The notes under the pieces are model-generated. The model had not been told where the DNA came from, searched no databases, and saw nothing but the letters and a program-made list of their open reading frames with translations. From positions 1 to 22,128 of IMG/VR virus record IMGVR_UViG_3300035698_015702: a DNA stretch of 22,128 bases; one strand, 5' to 3'. Positions within the stretch are counted from its first letter, which is position 1, and every line of letters begins with the position of its first letter. The stretch comes from a virus. A program made the translations under genes and the position numbers. Below, one piece after another: positions 13,023-21,908 of the stretch.

Positions 13023-13245
13023 CTCGATCACCTCCGACTGTCGCAAGCCCGTGAACAGCGAATCAATGACGGCCGGCTCCTGTACCGCAAACCCTTTACC
13101 GAACGCGGCATGCACCCGCTGCACGGCTCAGGCAAACACACCGCCTTTACCAAAAATCACTCAATAAAAACATTAACTTACACAGAACATTAACCCCCAC
13201 ACCCCTTTTTTTGACTTGGGCACGGATAGGTCAATAGGTAACTTT
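13023..13245. promoter_or_regulatory. AT-richer spacer upstream of terS: candidate late promoter / cos region with short repeats
   Basis: No gene is seen in these 223 bases, which are much richer in A/T than their surroundings from 13140 on. AACATTAAC occurs twice, at 13169-13177 and 13186-13194, spaced 17 bases. CCTTTACC occurs at 13093-13100 and 13144-13151. On the leftward strand TTGACC (from the 13230s) could be a -35 element. A run of seven T bases lies near 13204-13210 on the plus strand. The position between HNH and small terminase genes is where cos and terminase-binding repeats lie in HK97-like phages; this assignment is inference. Confidence 0.45.
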
Positions 13246-14383: not shown

Positions 14384-15007
14384 TCACCCGCCGACGCGGG
14401 CCTGCCCCTCCGTTTCCAGCCAGCGCCACAGCGCCCCCGATATGCCGGACAGCACCGCCGCCCGCTCGCCGATCGCGCCGCGCAGGTCGGGCCATGCCGG
14501 CCAGAAGTCATGCGCATCCGGCCATGACCGGATCGCGTCCTCGCAGGCCATCGCCGGAAACCCGGCCATCGCACCGGCATAGGCCAGCAGCACCGGTTCC
14601 GGGTTGGCCTCCACCCGCCGGGGCACCCGCAGCAACAGGCTGGTCTCACCCATGGCCAGCAACATTCGGTCCCGCCCGTCGGGCAGGTCCAGGCAGGGCC
14701 GCACCATCGCCCGCGCCAGCTGTTCCGCCACGGCCGCATCCGGCGCCGCGCCGCGCTCGGCCATCACCTGCCAGCCCACCGACCAGCACATCGTGAAGTC
14801 CTGCCGGTCCATCGGCGACAGGTCCGCCGTCTGCACGTTCAGCACGGACAAGCCGCAGGCTTGCGCGATGCATACCCTCGCCCAGGTCTCCGCCCCGCTC
14901 CTGGCGGCCACCGCCCGGGCGTCCGCCTCGCGCCTGCGCGCCGTGGCCAGCGCCGTCGCCGGCACCCCCGTCCGCGCCCTGCGCCCGCCGTCGGCCGTCC
15001 GGGTCAT
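14384..15007 (-). CDS. Hypothetical phage protein (helical, unknown), start uncertain
   Basis: From about residue 30 onward the protein looks genuinely coding: AETWARVCIAQACGLSVLNV, SPMDRQDFTMCWSVGWQVMA, LLLAMGETSLLLRVPRRVEA-like helices, DAIRSWPDAHDFWPAWPDL and an end LSGISGALWRWLETEGQ. No family recognised. The frame overlaps the last 290-360 bases of the replication-protein ORF in another frame, which is an unusually long same-strand overlap. Possible starts are ATG 15037, ATG 15007 and GTG 14965; none has a well-spaced ribosome binding site. The GTG at 14965 lies in a 26-base repeat shared with 15979-16004. Confidence 0.6.
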   Translation of the reverse strand: MTRTADGGRRARTGVPATALATARRREADARAVAARSGAETWARVCIAQACGLSVLNVQTADLSPMDRQDFTMCWSVGWQVMAERGAAPDAAVAEQLARAMVRPCLDLPDGRDRMLLAMGETSLLLRVPRRVEANPEPVLLAYAGAMAGFPAMACEDAIRSWPDAHDFWPAWPDLRGAIGERAAVLSGISGALWRWLETEGQARVGG

Positions 15008-15935
15008 GCTCCCTGACCCATTGCCGCCATTCGGCATCCCAGTCCGCACTGCGCCGGTTGCGGGCGATGGCCCTGTCCCGGAAAGCCGTGAACCCGTTCG
15101 CGCTGTCATCGCCACTCCACCCGTTCAAGTCCCTTGCTGCATCGACCCACAGCGCTGGCACCGCCTCGATGTGCCCCGGCCATCGTCGCCGCACCGCACC
15201 GCCTTCCACCCGCCCCCCTGTCTCCGAAATGGAAAGGGGGCTGGGGGAATGGATATGATTCTCAGAAATATCACAGGAGTCAGAACACATACTCAGAGTC
15301 TCTTTCTTCCCTTCTTCTATCTCTCTCTTACTTCTGTATTGCTTAAGCTGATTTTCGGATCGCCCATTGATTTCATTGGGATTTCCATTGCTGGCGGCGC
15401 AATCATTTGCCAATTGATTGGCCATTGATTGGCCATTGATTGGCAATTGATTGGCAATTGATTGGCCATTGATTGGCAAATCAATGGCCATTGATTGGCC
15501 GTTCGGCACCGCGTCGCCCGATCCACGTCCGGACCCGCCGCGCGCACCGCCGGACGACCCGCCTGCTGCGCCTGTGGACCGACCACCCCGGGCACCCTTG
15601 TCGGACGCCTCCGCACGCACCCTTTCCCGGTCAGCGATCACCTGGTCGGCCAGCGGACAGCGCATCTGCCCCTTGCCGTCGACGTACAGCAGCCCGTGGC
15701 TGATCAGCGATTCCCTGATCCGGTTCCACTTCCTGACCCCGATCATCAGCTGCCCCGCCACGAACTGCGGGTTCGACGGTATGCAGCCGCCATGCTGATG
15801 CACCAGGTCCAGCACCAGCGAAAACGCCGCGCGGACCTCGAAATCCGCGACGCCCGCGACCGCATGCGCCACCATCGCCGGATCCCGCTTGTACCAGCTG
15901 TCTGTCCTGGACCCCGAAACCCCCGCTGCACTCAT
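14646..15935 (-). CDS. DUF1376-type phage replication protein with internal origin-like repeats
   Basis: The ORF is 429 aa. Residues about 12-100 (DSWYKRDPAMVAHAV..., LVLDLVHQHGGCIPSNPQF, RKWNRIRESLISHGLLYVDG) match the winged-helix-like DUF1376/YdaU replication initiator domain. A Gly/Ser linker follows, then the repeat peptide (about 147-176), a Lys/Glu/Ser-rich linker (SKREIEEGKKETLS), and a C-terminal FTAFRDRAIARNRRSADWDAEWRQWVREHDP typical of these proteins' ends (region about 285-315). Beyond about residue 320 the frame is Gly/Ala/Arg-rich and overlaps the next gene, so the natural end is doubtful. GGGAGG precedes the ATG at 15935, which overlaps the upstream stop (ATGA). Confidence 0.75.
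   Translation of the reverse strand: MSAAGVSGSRTDSWYKRDPAMVAHAVAGVADFEVRAAFSLVLDLVHQHGGCIPSNPQFVAGQLMIGVRKWNRIRESLISHGLLYVDGKGQMRCPLADQVIADRERVRAEASDKGARGGRSTGAAGGSSGGARGGSGRGSGDAVPNGQSMAIDLPINGQSIANQLPINGQSMANQLANDCAASNGNPNEINGRSENQLKQYRSKREIEEGKKETLSMCSDSCDISENHIHSPSPLSISETGGRVEGGAVRRRWPGHIEAVPALWVDAARDLNGWSGDDSANGFTAFRDRAIARNRRSADWDAEWRQWVREHDPDGRRRAQGADGGAGDGAGHGAQARGGRPGGGRQERGGDLGEGMHRASLRLVRAERADGGPVADGPAGLHDVLVGGLAGDGRARRGAGCGRGGTAGAGDGAALPGPARRAGPNVAGHG
14948..14973 (-). repeat. 26-bp direct repeat, copy 1
   Basis: Identical over 26 bases to 15979-16004, about 1.03 kb away in the same orientation. In the replication-protein frame both copies encode the peptide DGGAGDGA; in the other frame both give TGVPATAL. 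It lies in the region where the replication ORF overlaps the following gene. Confidence 0.8.
15255..15409. other. AT-rich and purine/pyrimidine-biased tract next to the iterons (candidate unwinding region)
   Basis: This segment is strikingly poorer in G/C than the rest of the window. Bases 15299-15335 are pyrimidine in 35 of 37 positions on the plus strand, interrupted only at 15319 and 15330. It encodes the low-complexity Lys/Glu/Ser linker of the replication protein. Next to iteron-like repeats, an AT-rich tract would serve as the duplex-unwinding element. Confidence 0.5.
15410..15497. repeat. Eight tandem 11-bp repeats (iteron-like) inside the replication gene
   Basis: Consecutive 11-base units are variants of GCCATTGATTG / GCAATTGATTG from 15410 to 15497; the seventh unit (15476-15486) is inverted in part, giving an 18-bp perfect palindrome at 15479-15496 (AATCAATGG CCATTGATT). 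Three units make 33 bp, so the encoded peptide also repeats every 11 residues (QSMANQLPING). Short, turn-length direct repeats inside an initiator gene are the arrangement of the lambda O origin. Confidence 0.85.
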
Positions 15936-16332: not shown

Positions 16333-16392
16333 TCACCCGCCGCCTCCGTTGCCGTCGAAGATGCCCAGCCCGTCCATGTCCGCGCCCGTCAT
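16333..16392 (-). CDS. Possible 19-aa peptide gene
   Basis: An ATG at 16392 overlaps the stop of the DNA methyltransferase (ATGA) and opens a 19-codon frame (MTGADMDGLGIFDGNGGGG) ending at 16333. It neatly fills the gap before the next gene. The junction is the same as at neighbouring genes, but the ORF is too short to judge by composition. It may instead simply allow ribosomes to reach the next start. Confidence 0.3.
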   Translation of the reverse strand: MTGADMDGLGIFDGNGGGG

Positions 16393-17096
16393 GCCCCGAC
16401 CTCCGCAACCGGAACGCCGGTCGCCCGTTGGTCATTCGGGTAGTCGCCGGGCCGTTCAAGCGCCTTGCGGCAGGGCGGAATCCAGACGCAGCGGGCGGAA
16501 CGGTCGACGCGGACGAAGTCATGCCCCGGCCAGACCAGCCAGGAATAGCTGGTCGCGCTGCTGCCCGTGCCGGACAGCCGCCCCCTGAACATCGGCACCC
16601 GCTCCACGAACGGCGCCACGATCAGCGGCGGCCGGTCGCGGAACAGCCCGCGATAGCGCCCGACCCCCTCCAGGAAACTGGTGCGCACCAGCATCGCCAC
16701 GGCCTGGCTGGCCACGTCGCAGGCCCGCGCGATAAACTGTTCGGCCAGCCGGAACGGCGGGTTCGTGATGATGAAATGCGGCCCCGGCAGGGCCTCGACC
16801 TCCGCCGGCAGGAACGGCAGCAGGAAATCATGCACCCGACCATGGCCATGGTCGTGCACGTCGGTGCCGATCACCGAGCCGAAATACTCCGACAGTGGCC
16901 GGCGCATGTGATCGCTGCCGCAGGCCGGTTCCCATGCCACCGCCCGGCGCAGCTGATCGCGCCGCCAGCCCTGGCCGATCAGCACATGTTCGCACAGTGC
17001 CCGCGTCGCCCAGGGTGGCGTCGGGAAATAGTCCAGGCTGTCGTGCGGTTCCGACCGCTGCGCCATTACAGCCGATGACCGGTTGCCGCCGCTCAT
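16389..17096 (-). CDS. Adenine-type DNA methyltransferase
   Basis: This 235-aa protein has SLDYFPTPPWATRAL (residues about 20-34), motif I-like AWEPACGSDHM (53-63), and motif IV FIITNPPFRLAEQFI (about 107-121), the order of phage amino-methyltransferases that modify N6 of adenine. The C-terminal part (FVRVDRSARCVW, IPPCRKALERPGDYP) is small; no clear target-recognition domain is visible. It would methylate phage or host DNA to avoid restriction or alter regulation. Placed immediately after a GcrA-like gene (ATGA overlap at 17093-17096), which is suggestive because host GcrA senses adenine-methylated promoters. The recognition sequence cannot be read. Confidence 0.85.
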   Translation of the reverse strand: MSGGNRSSAVMAQRSEPHDSLDYFPTPPWATRALCEHVLIGQGWRRDQLRRAVAWEPACGSDHMRRPLSEYFGSVIGTDVHDHGHGRVHDFLLPFLPAEVEALPGPHFIITNPPFRLAEQFIARACDVASQAVAMLVRTSFLEGVGRYRGLFRDRPPLIVAPFVERVPMFRGRLSGTGSSATSYSWLVWPGHDFVRVDRSARCVWIPPCRKALERPGDYPNDQRATGVPVAEVGA

Positions 17097-17659
17097 GCCC
17101 CGTCATCCCCGGCCCACGCCGTCGGGCGGGCGGCGCGCCTGGCATGGGCGACGCAATAGGTCCGCACCAGCCAGGCAGTGAAGCCGCCCGCCGGGGCCGA
17201 AACGCCCTTGATTCGCGCCGCCACCCGCCGCCCGCAGAACCCGAAGTCCGCGTCGCCGACAAGCCCGATCGGCCATTGGCATTCCCGCCCGTGCGGGGGC
17301 GCTTCCGCGCCCGGCCAATGCACCTTGTCATCCGGCCACGGGTCGCCAGCCTGGTGCCCGGCGGGCGGTGGCGCCATCACCTTGGTCGCCGCCGAGCGCG
17401 GCCGCGCCTTCGCCGGTGCTGAAGCCAGCCGCTGCGCCGCCGCGCGCCGTTCCGCCGCCCGCGCCGCTGTCGGGGTTGCCCGTGGCGGCCCGATGCTGAT
17501 ACCCCGGCGGTGCGCTTGGCCCAGCACCGCCGCCCGGCTGAAGTCCCGCCCGAACTGGTCCGTCAACAGCGTGGCGATGCCCGATGCCGACAGCTGCTCG
17601 TCAGCCGCCAGTTCACCCAGCCGGGCCTGTTCGGCCCGTGACCATTCCGCGCCCTTCAC
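17093..17659 (-). CDS. GcrA-like cell-cycle regulator
   Basis: This 188-aa protein begins MKGAEWSRAEQARLGELAAD and continues with an HTH pattern (SASGIATLLTDQFGRDFSRAAVLGQAHRRG, region about 22-52). It ends with CQWPIGLVGDADFGFCGRRVA and AWLVRTYCVAHARRA. The N-terminal W-S...L..L...G.S...IA..L...F..R.AV..K.HR.G and the C-terminal CxWPIG...FxFCG...YC..H are the GcrA hallmarks. Host GcrA works with sigma70 RNA polymerase at methylated promoters. The GTG at 17659 is chosen because it overlaps the upstream stop (GTGA) and has GGGGG 7 bases before it; GTG 17665 is possible. The middle linker is Ala/Arg/Pro-rich. Confidence 0.85.
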   Translation of the reverse strand: MKGAEWSRAEQARLGELAADEQLSASGIATLLTDQFGRDFSRAAVLGQAHRRGISIGPPRATPTAARAAERRAAAQRLASAPAKARPRSAATKVMAPPPAGHQAGDPWPDDKVHWPGAEAPPHGRECQWPIGLVGDADFGFCGRRVAARIKGVSAPAGGFTAWLVRTYCVAHARRAARPTAWAGDDGA

Positions 17660-18195
17660 AGCCACGCCCCCAGGTCCAGCCCGGCAAGCTGCACCACGCC
17701 TTCGGCGGCGATACCGCCGCTGCTGCCGGTACGGCAGCCGTCGCACATGCGATGGTGTGGCCCCTCCGACACGAAGCCGGCGCCGCAGGTCAGGCAGTGC
17801 CGCATCCTGGCCATGAACCGCCACGGCCCGACGACAATGCCCTCGCCCTGGCGGATGCGTTCCAGTTCCTTGCGCGTCGCGCCCACCAGCCGCCCGATCT
17901 CCGCCGCCGCCTGCTCGACCGTCCGGCCCTGCTCGTCAACCAGCTGCAACAGCCGACCCCGCTCCGGCGGCGTCCACGGCGCGTGGCCCAGCACCGCCAC
18001 CGGCGGCACCTCGTCGCGGCGCGCGGTGCCGCGCAGCTTCACCAGCTTGCGGCTGGCAACGCCCCGGCTGACCGCCACCCCGTGCCGCTCCGTCAGCAGC
18101 CGCGCACAGGCCGCCAGATCCTCGCCCTGGTTCAGCCAGGCGATGAAGTCATCCACCATGGCCGCCGTCCACCGCACCGGGCCCGGCATCGTCAC
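17656..18195 (-). CDS. Two-HTH regulator with C-terminal zinc ribbon
   Basis: This 179-aa protein has two similar N-terminal HTH-like units: RWTAAMVDDFIAWLNQGEDL...SRGVASRKLVKL (residues about 8-54) and PWTPPERGRLLQLVDEQGRT...LVGATRKELERI (about 73-114). Both open with an R/P-W-T motif as in GcrA/Myb-like domains. A zinc ribbon follows, with Cys134, Cys137, Cys151 and Cys154 (CLTCG...CDGC). I infer a DNA-binding transcription factor; the exact family is not recognised. The GTG at 18195 overlaps the DUF2303 stop (GTGA); ATG 18189 is the alternative. Its start region is duplicated, inverted, at 20131-20166. Confidence 0.65.
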   Translation of the reverse strand: MTMPGPVRWTAAMVDDFIAWLNQGEDLAACARLLTERHGVAVSRGVASRKLVKLRGTARRDEVPPVAVLGHAPWTPPERGRLLQLVDEQGRTVEQAAAEIGRLVGATRKELERIRQGEGIVVGPWRFMARMRHCLTCGAGFVSEGPHHRMCDGCRTGSSGGIAAEGVVQLAGLDLGAWL

Positions 18196-20241: not shown

Positions 20242-21063
20242 ATGACGAGCGCCCAGCCGACCCGAACCAGCCCTGCACCCGTGCCAGACCGGGGCACCAT
20301 GACCCGCCCTGCCATGACCCTGGCCGCGGACAACCCGCCGTATCACCCGCATCAGCCGGCGCCGCCGGCCACGGGCTGGCCGGGCATGTCGGACGAATGG
20401 GCTTGCAACGGCACCTTCGTCGCCACCTCGTCCGGCCGCATCTGGCCGCTGCTGTCGGCCACGGCGACAGATGTCCACTGGCCTGACATCGCCCGGCAGC
20501 TGGCGCGCATCCCGCGCTTCGGCGCCTGCACCGACGCCGGCATCTATTCCGTCGCCCAGCATTCCGTCGCCGTCATGCGGCTGGTCAGCCCGGCGGCCCG
20601 GGCCCACGCCCTGCTGCACGACGCGCACGAAGCCTACATCGGCGACATGATCACCCCGGTGAAGCGGGCCTTGCGCATCGCCGCCATGTATACCGCGCAA
20701 ACCCTGAACTTCCACGCCCACCACGGCGAAACCATTCTCGATGCGGCGCTGGAACGCATCCGCCAGACCGCCGACGCCGCCATCCACACCCGCGCCGGCA
20801 TCGCCATGCCGTGGCAGGCGCCGCTGGCCGTGCAGCAGGCGGTCCACGCCGCCGACCGGACGCAACTGGCGCGAGAGGCGCAATGGCTGCTGCCCGCCGG
20901 CCCGGCGCTGGACGCATGGGCCGTCACCGACCCCGCCCTGTTCCGCACCGATCGCGGGCCGCAGATCGAGGTGCTGCACGCCGACCTGGCCGAACAGCAG
21001 TTCCTGCACGCCCTGGCCGAAACCATTCCCGCCGCCGCGCTGGACATGGAATCGGGCGGATGA
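20242..21063 (+). CDS. HD-domain phosphohydrolase (phage nucleotidase-like)
   Basis: This 273-aa protein contains GRIWPLLSATATDVHWPDIARQL (from about residue 65), IYSVAQHSVAVM with His107, LLHDAHEAYIGD with His126-Asp127, Glu130 and Asp135, then PVKRAL. This is the H...HD...D metal-binding pattern of YfbR-like 5'-nucleotidases and phage HD hydrolases that act on deoxynucleoside monophosphates. Other phages use such enzymes to adjust nucleotide pools, so that role is likely here. I chose ATG 20242 because AAAGG lies 7 bases upstream; the ATG at 20227 lacks one, and ATG 20299 is also possible. It overlaps the next gene by 4 bases (ATGA). Confidence 0.85.
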   Translation: MTSAQPTRTSPAPVPDRGTMTRPAMTLAADNPPYHPHQPAPPATGWPGMSDEWACNGTFVATSSGRIWPLLSATATDVHWPDIARQLARIPRFGACTDAGIYSVAQHSVAVMRLVSPAARAHALLHDAHEAYIGDMITPVKRALRIAAMYTAQTLNFHAHHGETILDAALERIRQTADAAIHTRAGIAMPWQAPLAVQQAVHAADRTQLAREAQWLLPAGPALDAWAVTDPALFRTDRGPQIEVLHADLAEQQFLHALAETIPAAALDMESGG

Positions 21064-21908
21064 TGCAGCCCGCGAAGATCCCTGCCCTCGCCGCCGCCCT
21101 GGCCTCGCCCCGGTGGACGCCTGCCGCCACGCCGGGCGACCGGCCGCGCGTCGAATGGCACCCGACCGACACGCTGATTGTCGATTCCCGCTTCCAGCGT
21201 GACCTCGCCAACAGTTCCCGGCTGCTGATCCGGCGCATCGTCGAGAACTTTCAATGGCGGCTGTTCGGCATCGTCATCTGCACCGACAACGGCGATGGCA
21301 GCTTCACGGTGATCGACGGCCAGCACCGCGCCATTGCCGCGGCCATACACCCGGCATGCCACATGGTGCCGGTGTTCCTGACCGATGCCGAAACGCTGCA
21401 GGAACAGGCCGCTGCCTTCCTCGACATCAACCGCAACCGGGTCGCGATGAACGCCTTGCAGATGCACAAGGCCCGGCGCCTGGCGGGCGATGATGCCGCC
21501 GCCGCCATCGCCCGAGCCTGCGACGCCACCGGCATCATCGTGCCCGGCAACGTCGTCAGCTTTGCCAACCTGAAACCACGCCAGATCCTCTGCATCACCA
21601 GCCTTTACCGCGTCCGGGCCATTTACGGCGATGAAACCCTGCGCCAGACGCTGGCGACCTGCACCACCGCCTGGCCGGACTCCGCCGGTGACATCATGGC
21701 CGTCGTCGTGAAGGCCGTCGCCATGCTGATCGGCCGCGACGCTATCCCCACCGTCGCCCTGGTCGCCATCCTGCGCACCCGAACCGGCGACGAATGGCAG
21801 GAGGCCGCCCGCGCCCAGGCCCGCAACGTCGGCTGCGACCAGGCCAGCGCCCTGGTCCAGATCATCACCGACCACCACGCCAGACAGCCGAAGGGAACCA
21901 GCCAATGA
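21060..21908 (+). CDS. ParB/Srx-like domain protein
   Basis: This 282-aa protein has [19 protein letters not shown] (residues about 31-49), [22 protein letters not shown] (DGQHR at 86-90), AIAAAI, then [26 protein letters not shown]. This is the ParB N-terminal/sulfiredoxin-like fold with the DGQHR motif. The rest is helical ([40 protein letters not shown]). In phages such proteins are thought to bind or nick DNA or use nucleotides (ParB-type CTPase activity in some), but the role here is open. The start at 21060 (ATGATG) overlaps the HD gene stop; 21063 is the alternative. Confidence 0.8.

Follow-up and report, generated by a model that had tools for sequence, protein, structure and literature searches.

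The window analysed here, a virus record of 22,128 bp, contains on its minus strand an ORF of 429 aa (14646-15935), a putative replication-initiator gene that holds within its coding sequence both an entire array of short DNA repeats and the AT-rich tract beside it. The question raised by this locus is what such repeats are doing inside a gene. An initial annotation had proposed a lambda-like replication origin. The array itself occupies 15410-15497 and consists of eight contiguous 11-bp units, the number and place that had been given for it, but the units are not all direct: seven are, sharing the pattern (G/C)C(A/C)ATTGATTG, while one, at about 15475-15486 on the minus strand, is inverted (GCAAATCAATG / GGCAAATCAAT). 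As a result of the inversion, this unit and the last direct unit form the annotated 18-bp palindrome, AATCAATGGCCATTGATT, which is perfect and lies at 15479-15496. Since a second 18-bp palindrome occurs in the window at 16837-16854, a palindrome of this length is not unusual by itself. The array units also bear short dyads of the ATTG-C-CAAT type (coding strand), about one per helical turn, and a lone partial unit, CCATTGATTT, lies at 15364-15373 on the AT-rich side, ~47 bp off the array. DnaA boxes were sought near the array and none was found. The period-11 self-similarity score of the array was 48, compared to a maximum of 11 in the rest of the window and of 14 among 500 dinucleotide shuffles, none of which reached 48.

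An array within a coding sequence might conceivably be a repeat of the protein or a product of slippage, i.e., a disordered linker with no role at the DNA level. Disorder is predicted for most of the segment that the array encodes, and in the full-length model this segment is mostly of low confidence (<50 at aa 127-169). In addition, some relatives carry repeats with periods of 24 or 12, which are multiples of 3 (e.g., L022), and some of the simple AGGGAC/CCTTCA tracts belong to this multiple-of-3 type as well. However, since 11 is not a multiple of 3, successive units of the array are read in all three frames, and synonymous-codon shuffles that kept the protein (n = 500) gave a maximum score of 33, with none reaching that of the array. 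Repeats of relatives likewise cross reading frames within the gene (15/15, 11/15, and 24/27 genes), with inverted copies in excess and helical spacings preferred. We regard a protein-level or slippage repeat as very improbable.

The DNA adjoining the array has a GC content of 0.38-0.45, as opposed to ~0.70 in its surroundings, and includes the duplex-stability minimum of all 22 kb, whether measured in 100-bp (15247-15346) or 200-bp windows (15252-15451). For 150-bp stretches the minimum falls at 15243-15392, a candidate unwinding element, and the least stable 100-200 bp are located on the lower-coordinate side of the array. A tract at 15299-15346 is strand-biased, with pyrimidines prevailing on the plus strand and purines on the coding strand; among all 40-bp stretches of the window, pyrimidine bias is greatest (90%) in the one starting at 15301, and among 60-bp stretches, bias is greatest in the one starting at 15299. 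The AT-rich, strongly strand-biased tract described in the initial annotation is thus both the stability minimum and the strand-bias maximum of the whole window. GC skew across the window showed no sharp switch at the site of the array.

The gene had been described as DUF1376-type. Judged by sequence matching, this assignment is sub-threshold: PF07120 (DUF1376) matched aa 14-87 (15675-15896, minus strand) with E = 0.002 and 18.8 bits, below the Pfam cut-off of 30.1, and the match of the 429-aa ORF to phrog_34432 was weak (E = 3.7e-5). The predicted structure nevertheless supports it. AlphaFold2, given an alignment of 64 relatives, modelled the N-terminal domain as winged-helix-like (pLDDT 90, pTM 0.80), and the top viral matches of this model in Foldseek were DUF1376 proteins (TM 0.7-0.8), with the N-terminal domain of the Streptococcus phage Abc2 replisome organiser ranked lower (TM 0.61, E = 0.01). 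A fold search of solved structures returned only generic winged helices (ArsR, MarR, and DnaD N-terminal; E 0.01-0.07), and a search of the PDB by sequence with the protein gave nothing credible. As modelled, the protein has the DUF1376 fold, and it can be aligned with clear members of the family, its identity to 64 subfamily relatives being mostly 25-34%. Its C-terminal part (14970-15107, minus strand) is helical, with helices at aa 278-321 predicted at moderate confidence, and bears a DWxxxWxxW motif, which is common to this ORF, its phage relative L005, and many DUF1376 genes. The array-bearing gene probably encodes a DNA-replication initiator.

Lying ~440 bp into the ORF and not at its promoter, the array sits between the predicted winged-helix domain and the helical C-terminus. 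In lambda and in the Stx phages P27 and 933W, iterons plus an AT-rich tract occur in gene O, and the number of iterons varies (PMC7466680). The likeness extends to their placement, since in lambda, too, iterons and AT-rich tract lie mid-gene, between the N-terminal DNA-binding part and the C-terminal, helicase-recruiting part; both elements of the lambda O plan put forward for this locus, repeats between N- and C-terminal parts and an easily melted tract, are present. The initiators differ, however, as that of lambda is O, and the window ORF has no family match to it, by Pfam or PHROGs. The units differ as well: in the J02459 annotation, the lambda origin comprises four iterons of 18 bp, with start-to-start distances of 20, 24, and 23 bp, whereas the window has eight contiguous 11-bp units. 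The distinct 11-bp design that had been noted does set the array apart from lambda's 18-mers, but it proved to be common in the DUF1376 family and is not peculiar to this phage. Two other known systems invite comparison. Iteron plasmids such as R6K, F, and P1 combine helically phased direct repeats with a winged-helix initiator and an adjacent AT-rich region; their iterons are 17-22 bp long, belong to other Rep families, and lie outside the rep gene, whereas those of the window are inside the gene, and the ORF has no plasmid Rep match in Pfam or PHROGs. Among Gram-positive phages with replisome-organiser genes (e.g., TP901-1, SPP1 gp38), the initiator gene contains or adjoins the origin, and the predicted domain of the window protein resembles the N-terminal domain of Abc2 and, weakly, DnaD N-terminal domains. 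These proteins nonetheless belong to another sequence family, and a moderate structural match of this kind is no proof of common descent.

No close homologue of the initiator ORF was found in viral contigs, either by protein search or by iteron-pattern search, or in genome contigs, and phage and plasmid collections yielded one distant match each. Relatives were instead reached by way of subfamily alignments and, in the case of L005, through the neighbouring terminase. L005, the closest phage relative, is a prophage in a Minwuia MAG whose terminase is 86% identical to that of the window. At its rep locus, the gene encodes an HTH_36 domain (E = 4.5e-10) and contains four copies of GGTGAACCCAGT(T/G)CACC, spaced 23, 22, and 23 bp apart; an AT-rich stretch is also present, and the encoded C-terminus bears the same DWxxxWxxW motif. 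Considering that L005 has another HTH domain and other repeats with a similar C-terminus, the DNA-binding domain and the repeats were exchanged together while the rest was kept. Joint exchange of this kind also occurs between lambdoid phages.

To survey the family, we assembled 239 distinct genes, including that of the window, from viral contigs (three subfamilies), alphaproteobacterial genomes, and E. coli ydaU. We scored the positions of repeat pairs after masking low-complexity sequence, using synonymous-codon shuffles as the control; the mixed alignment A1 was too divergent for scanning. A tandem-repeat test (111/148 genes positive) was set aside. Since it was inflated by the simple AGGGAC/CCTTCA tracts, our conclusions rest on the masked tests. 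Lambda O barely passed the same tests (tandem 12 vs. 12 for the null; cluster 4 vs. 3), indicating that they are conservative. Among the 238 other DUF1376 genes, each of the three subfamilies showed a peak of repeat pairs in the linker that follows the domain: at 30-45 aa in subfamily B (10.3 observed vs. 2.7 expected), at 45-60 aa in subfamily C (10.7 vs. 1.9; inverted pairs 8.1 vs. 1.1), and at 0-15 aa in subfamily A (3.1 vs. 1.4; inverted pairs 2.3 vs. 0.6), which is nearest to the window, yet has the weakest signal of the three. At least five repeat copies were present in 31/239 DUF1376 genes but in none of 260 other ORFs from these contigs. The units vary among the family (TGTCCCnGGGACA, TTCCGnCGGAA, AAGCAATGCT, and others), and their spacing follows helical turns, with peaks at 11 bp (92 genes vs. 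21 expected), 22 bp (80 vs. 16), and 23 bp (64 vs. 16), and further peaks at 33-35 and 45-46 bp. AT content rises around or after the repeats, as does coding-strand purine bias in subfamilies A and C. The check suggested in the initial annotation, namely whether iterons of another sequence occupy the corresponding place in relatives, was thereby passed, both by L005 and by DUF1376 genes. The new element here is this family-wide pattern of in-gene repeats after the DUF1376 domain. Judged by title and abstract, no paper returned by a limited literature search describes a replication origin for DUF1376, in agreement with what had been stated for the family, although an earlier description may exist; one of these papers refers to DUF1376 solely as a predicted domain.

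In subfamily C, changes of iteron type numbered 9 on a tree of the N-terminal domain, 16 on a C-terminal tree, and ~22 when shuffled. The smaller number of changes on the N-domain tree implies that iterons follow the DNA-binding domain (both were fast trees), and for this subfamily the tracking is suggestive only. When covariation between specific residues and iterons was sought, five independent contrasts were available, too few for significance. As a separate observation, most genes of subfamily C (L035-L114) have, just behind their iterons, a purine tract of simple sequence, AGGGACAGGGA(G/C)AG, which keeps to a single reading frame in 51/66 genes.

These comparisons bear on whether the repeats are instead an autoregulatory operator, bound by the encoded protein or by another phage regulator, with replication starting elsewhere. 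The dyad units do look like operator sites, arrays can do both jobs, and GcrA and Cro-like HTH regulators are encoded elsewhere in the window. An operator would, however, be oddly placed so far inside the gene and away from the promoter, beside the window's stability minimum and at an in-gene position that is constant in three subfamilies, and it would leave aside the joint change of DNA-binding domain and repeats while the C-terminus stays. We consider an operator without origin function unlikely.

Genes adjacent to DUF1376 genes point toward replication as well. Downstream neighbours (n = 70) included 13 with a DnaB C-terminal domain, three lambda P-like, and three IstB/DnaC-like genes, and upstream neighbours (n = 43) included 11 DnaB genes. 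PHROGs labels the matching families as primosomal or replication-initiation proteins, and a few relatives match its "replication initiation O-like" groups. This context also weighs on the idea that the array serves another process, such as partition (as a centromere-like site), packaging, or recombination. Partition sites can be iteron arrays, and the window encodes a ParB-like protein at 20811-21908 (phrog_1033, E = 7e-13), on the strand opposite to the replication genes. That ORF, however, is 5 kb distant, DUF1376 genes have replication genes, not partition genes, as neighbours, and the repeats accompany the DUF1376 domain whatever the phage, making a site for one of these other processes highly improbable.

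We therefore return to the replication origin. That the array and the tract together form an origin located inside the very gene that encodes its initiator is, in our judgment, quite likely, and this interpretation is well supported by comparison with relatives. From the position of the array, the co-exchange, and the fold, we infer that the N-terminal winged-helix domain would bind the eight 11-bp units, and with one unit per helical turn, the bound subunits would line up compactly along almost the same face of the DNA. Such a protein array would strain and melt the AT-rich, strand-biased tract at ~15243-15400, as its low stability suggests, and the C-terminal part might then recruit a helicase or loader, as judged from the neighbours of DUF1376 genes and by analogy to lambda O. 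Our best reading, by this analogy, is that the window origin would work like ori-lambda, with one-turn units and an initiator from outside the lambda O family.

A DUF1376 gene with repeats also occurs in E. coli K-12. Within the Rac prophage (L275:6120-7730), ydaU (DUF1376) is followed by ydaV, a putative ATP-binding protein/ATPase. Repeats resembling GTGTTCAAACA, some direct and some inverted, follow the DUF1376-coding part of ydaU, with spacings that include 33 and 45 bp. The YdaU-YdaV pair resembles the window in having a DUF1376 protein with repeats after the domain, but unlike those of the window, its repeats are few and degenerate (four copies, equalled by none of 20 dinucleotide shuffles and by one of 20 synonymous shuffles). 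An active origin of Rac, oriJ, is known (PMC3945230). A literature search for a link between oriJ and ydaU found none; on the strength of its repeats, ydaU is a candidate for oriJ. More broadly, we lean slightly towards the view that DUF1376 proteins are initiators of a lambda-O-like kind, making up a large family that has gone unrecognised. In this view, the gene would hold a single swappable cassette in which the DNA-binding domain is paired with helically phased iterons cognate to it; ydaU would be such a gene, possibly oriJ of Rac, and one-turn, overlapping dyads like those of the window would give an initiator filament denser than the lambda O-some.

The textbook in-gene origin plan of lambda would thus recur in an unrelated initiator family of many phages, one that Pfam still labels as of "unknown function" and whose repeats change along with the DNA-binding domain. 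If this is true, origins could be read straight from hundreds of phage genomes, the DUF1376 family would gain a function, and ydaU would make a K-12 gene directly testable. The spacing rule of 11, 22-23, 33-35, and 45-46 bp hints at how initiators of this kind pack on the DNA.

In the window, the ORF next to the initiator gene (14384-15115, minus strand, 243 aa) is in the position of lambda P; it has no family match but shows 55% identity to L005 over 251 aa. No recognisable helicase loader was found by Pfam or PHROGs beside the initiator ORF in this fragment, and a loader role for the 243-aa protein is positional guesswork. The 3' tail of the initiator ORF overlaps this ORF by up to 470 bp (14646-15115), and the overlap is kept in L005. 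Compared to L005, substitutions at 14646-14800 are spread evenly over codon positions (15, 13, and 13), whereas past this segment they favour the third codon position (17, 19, and 34); by this pattern, both frames of the overlap may be coding. Elsewhere, the phage encodes a GcrA-like cell-cycle regulator at 17093-17824 (Pfam E = 1e-11), adjoined by a DNA methyltransferase ORF at 16389-17096 (phrog_799). Finally, two related contigs from different samples (L006 and L007), one of them only ~80% identical, both start exactly at window position 13215, which adjoins the small terminase and HNH genes and lies within an AT-rich stretch (13146-13245); this position may be a physical genome end (cos site).
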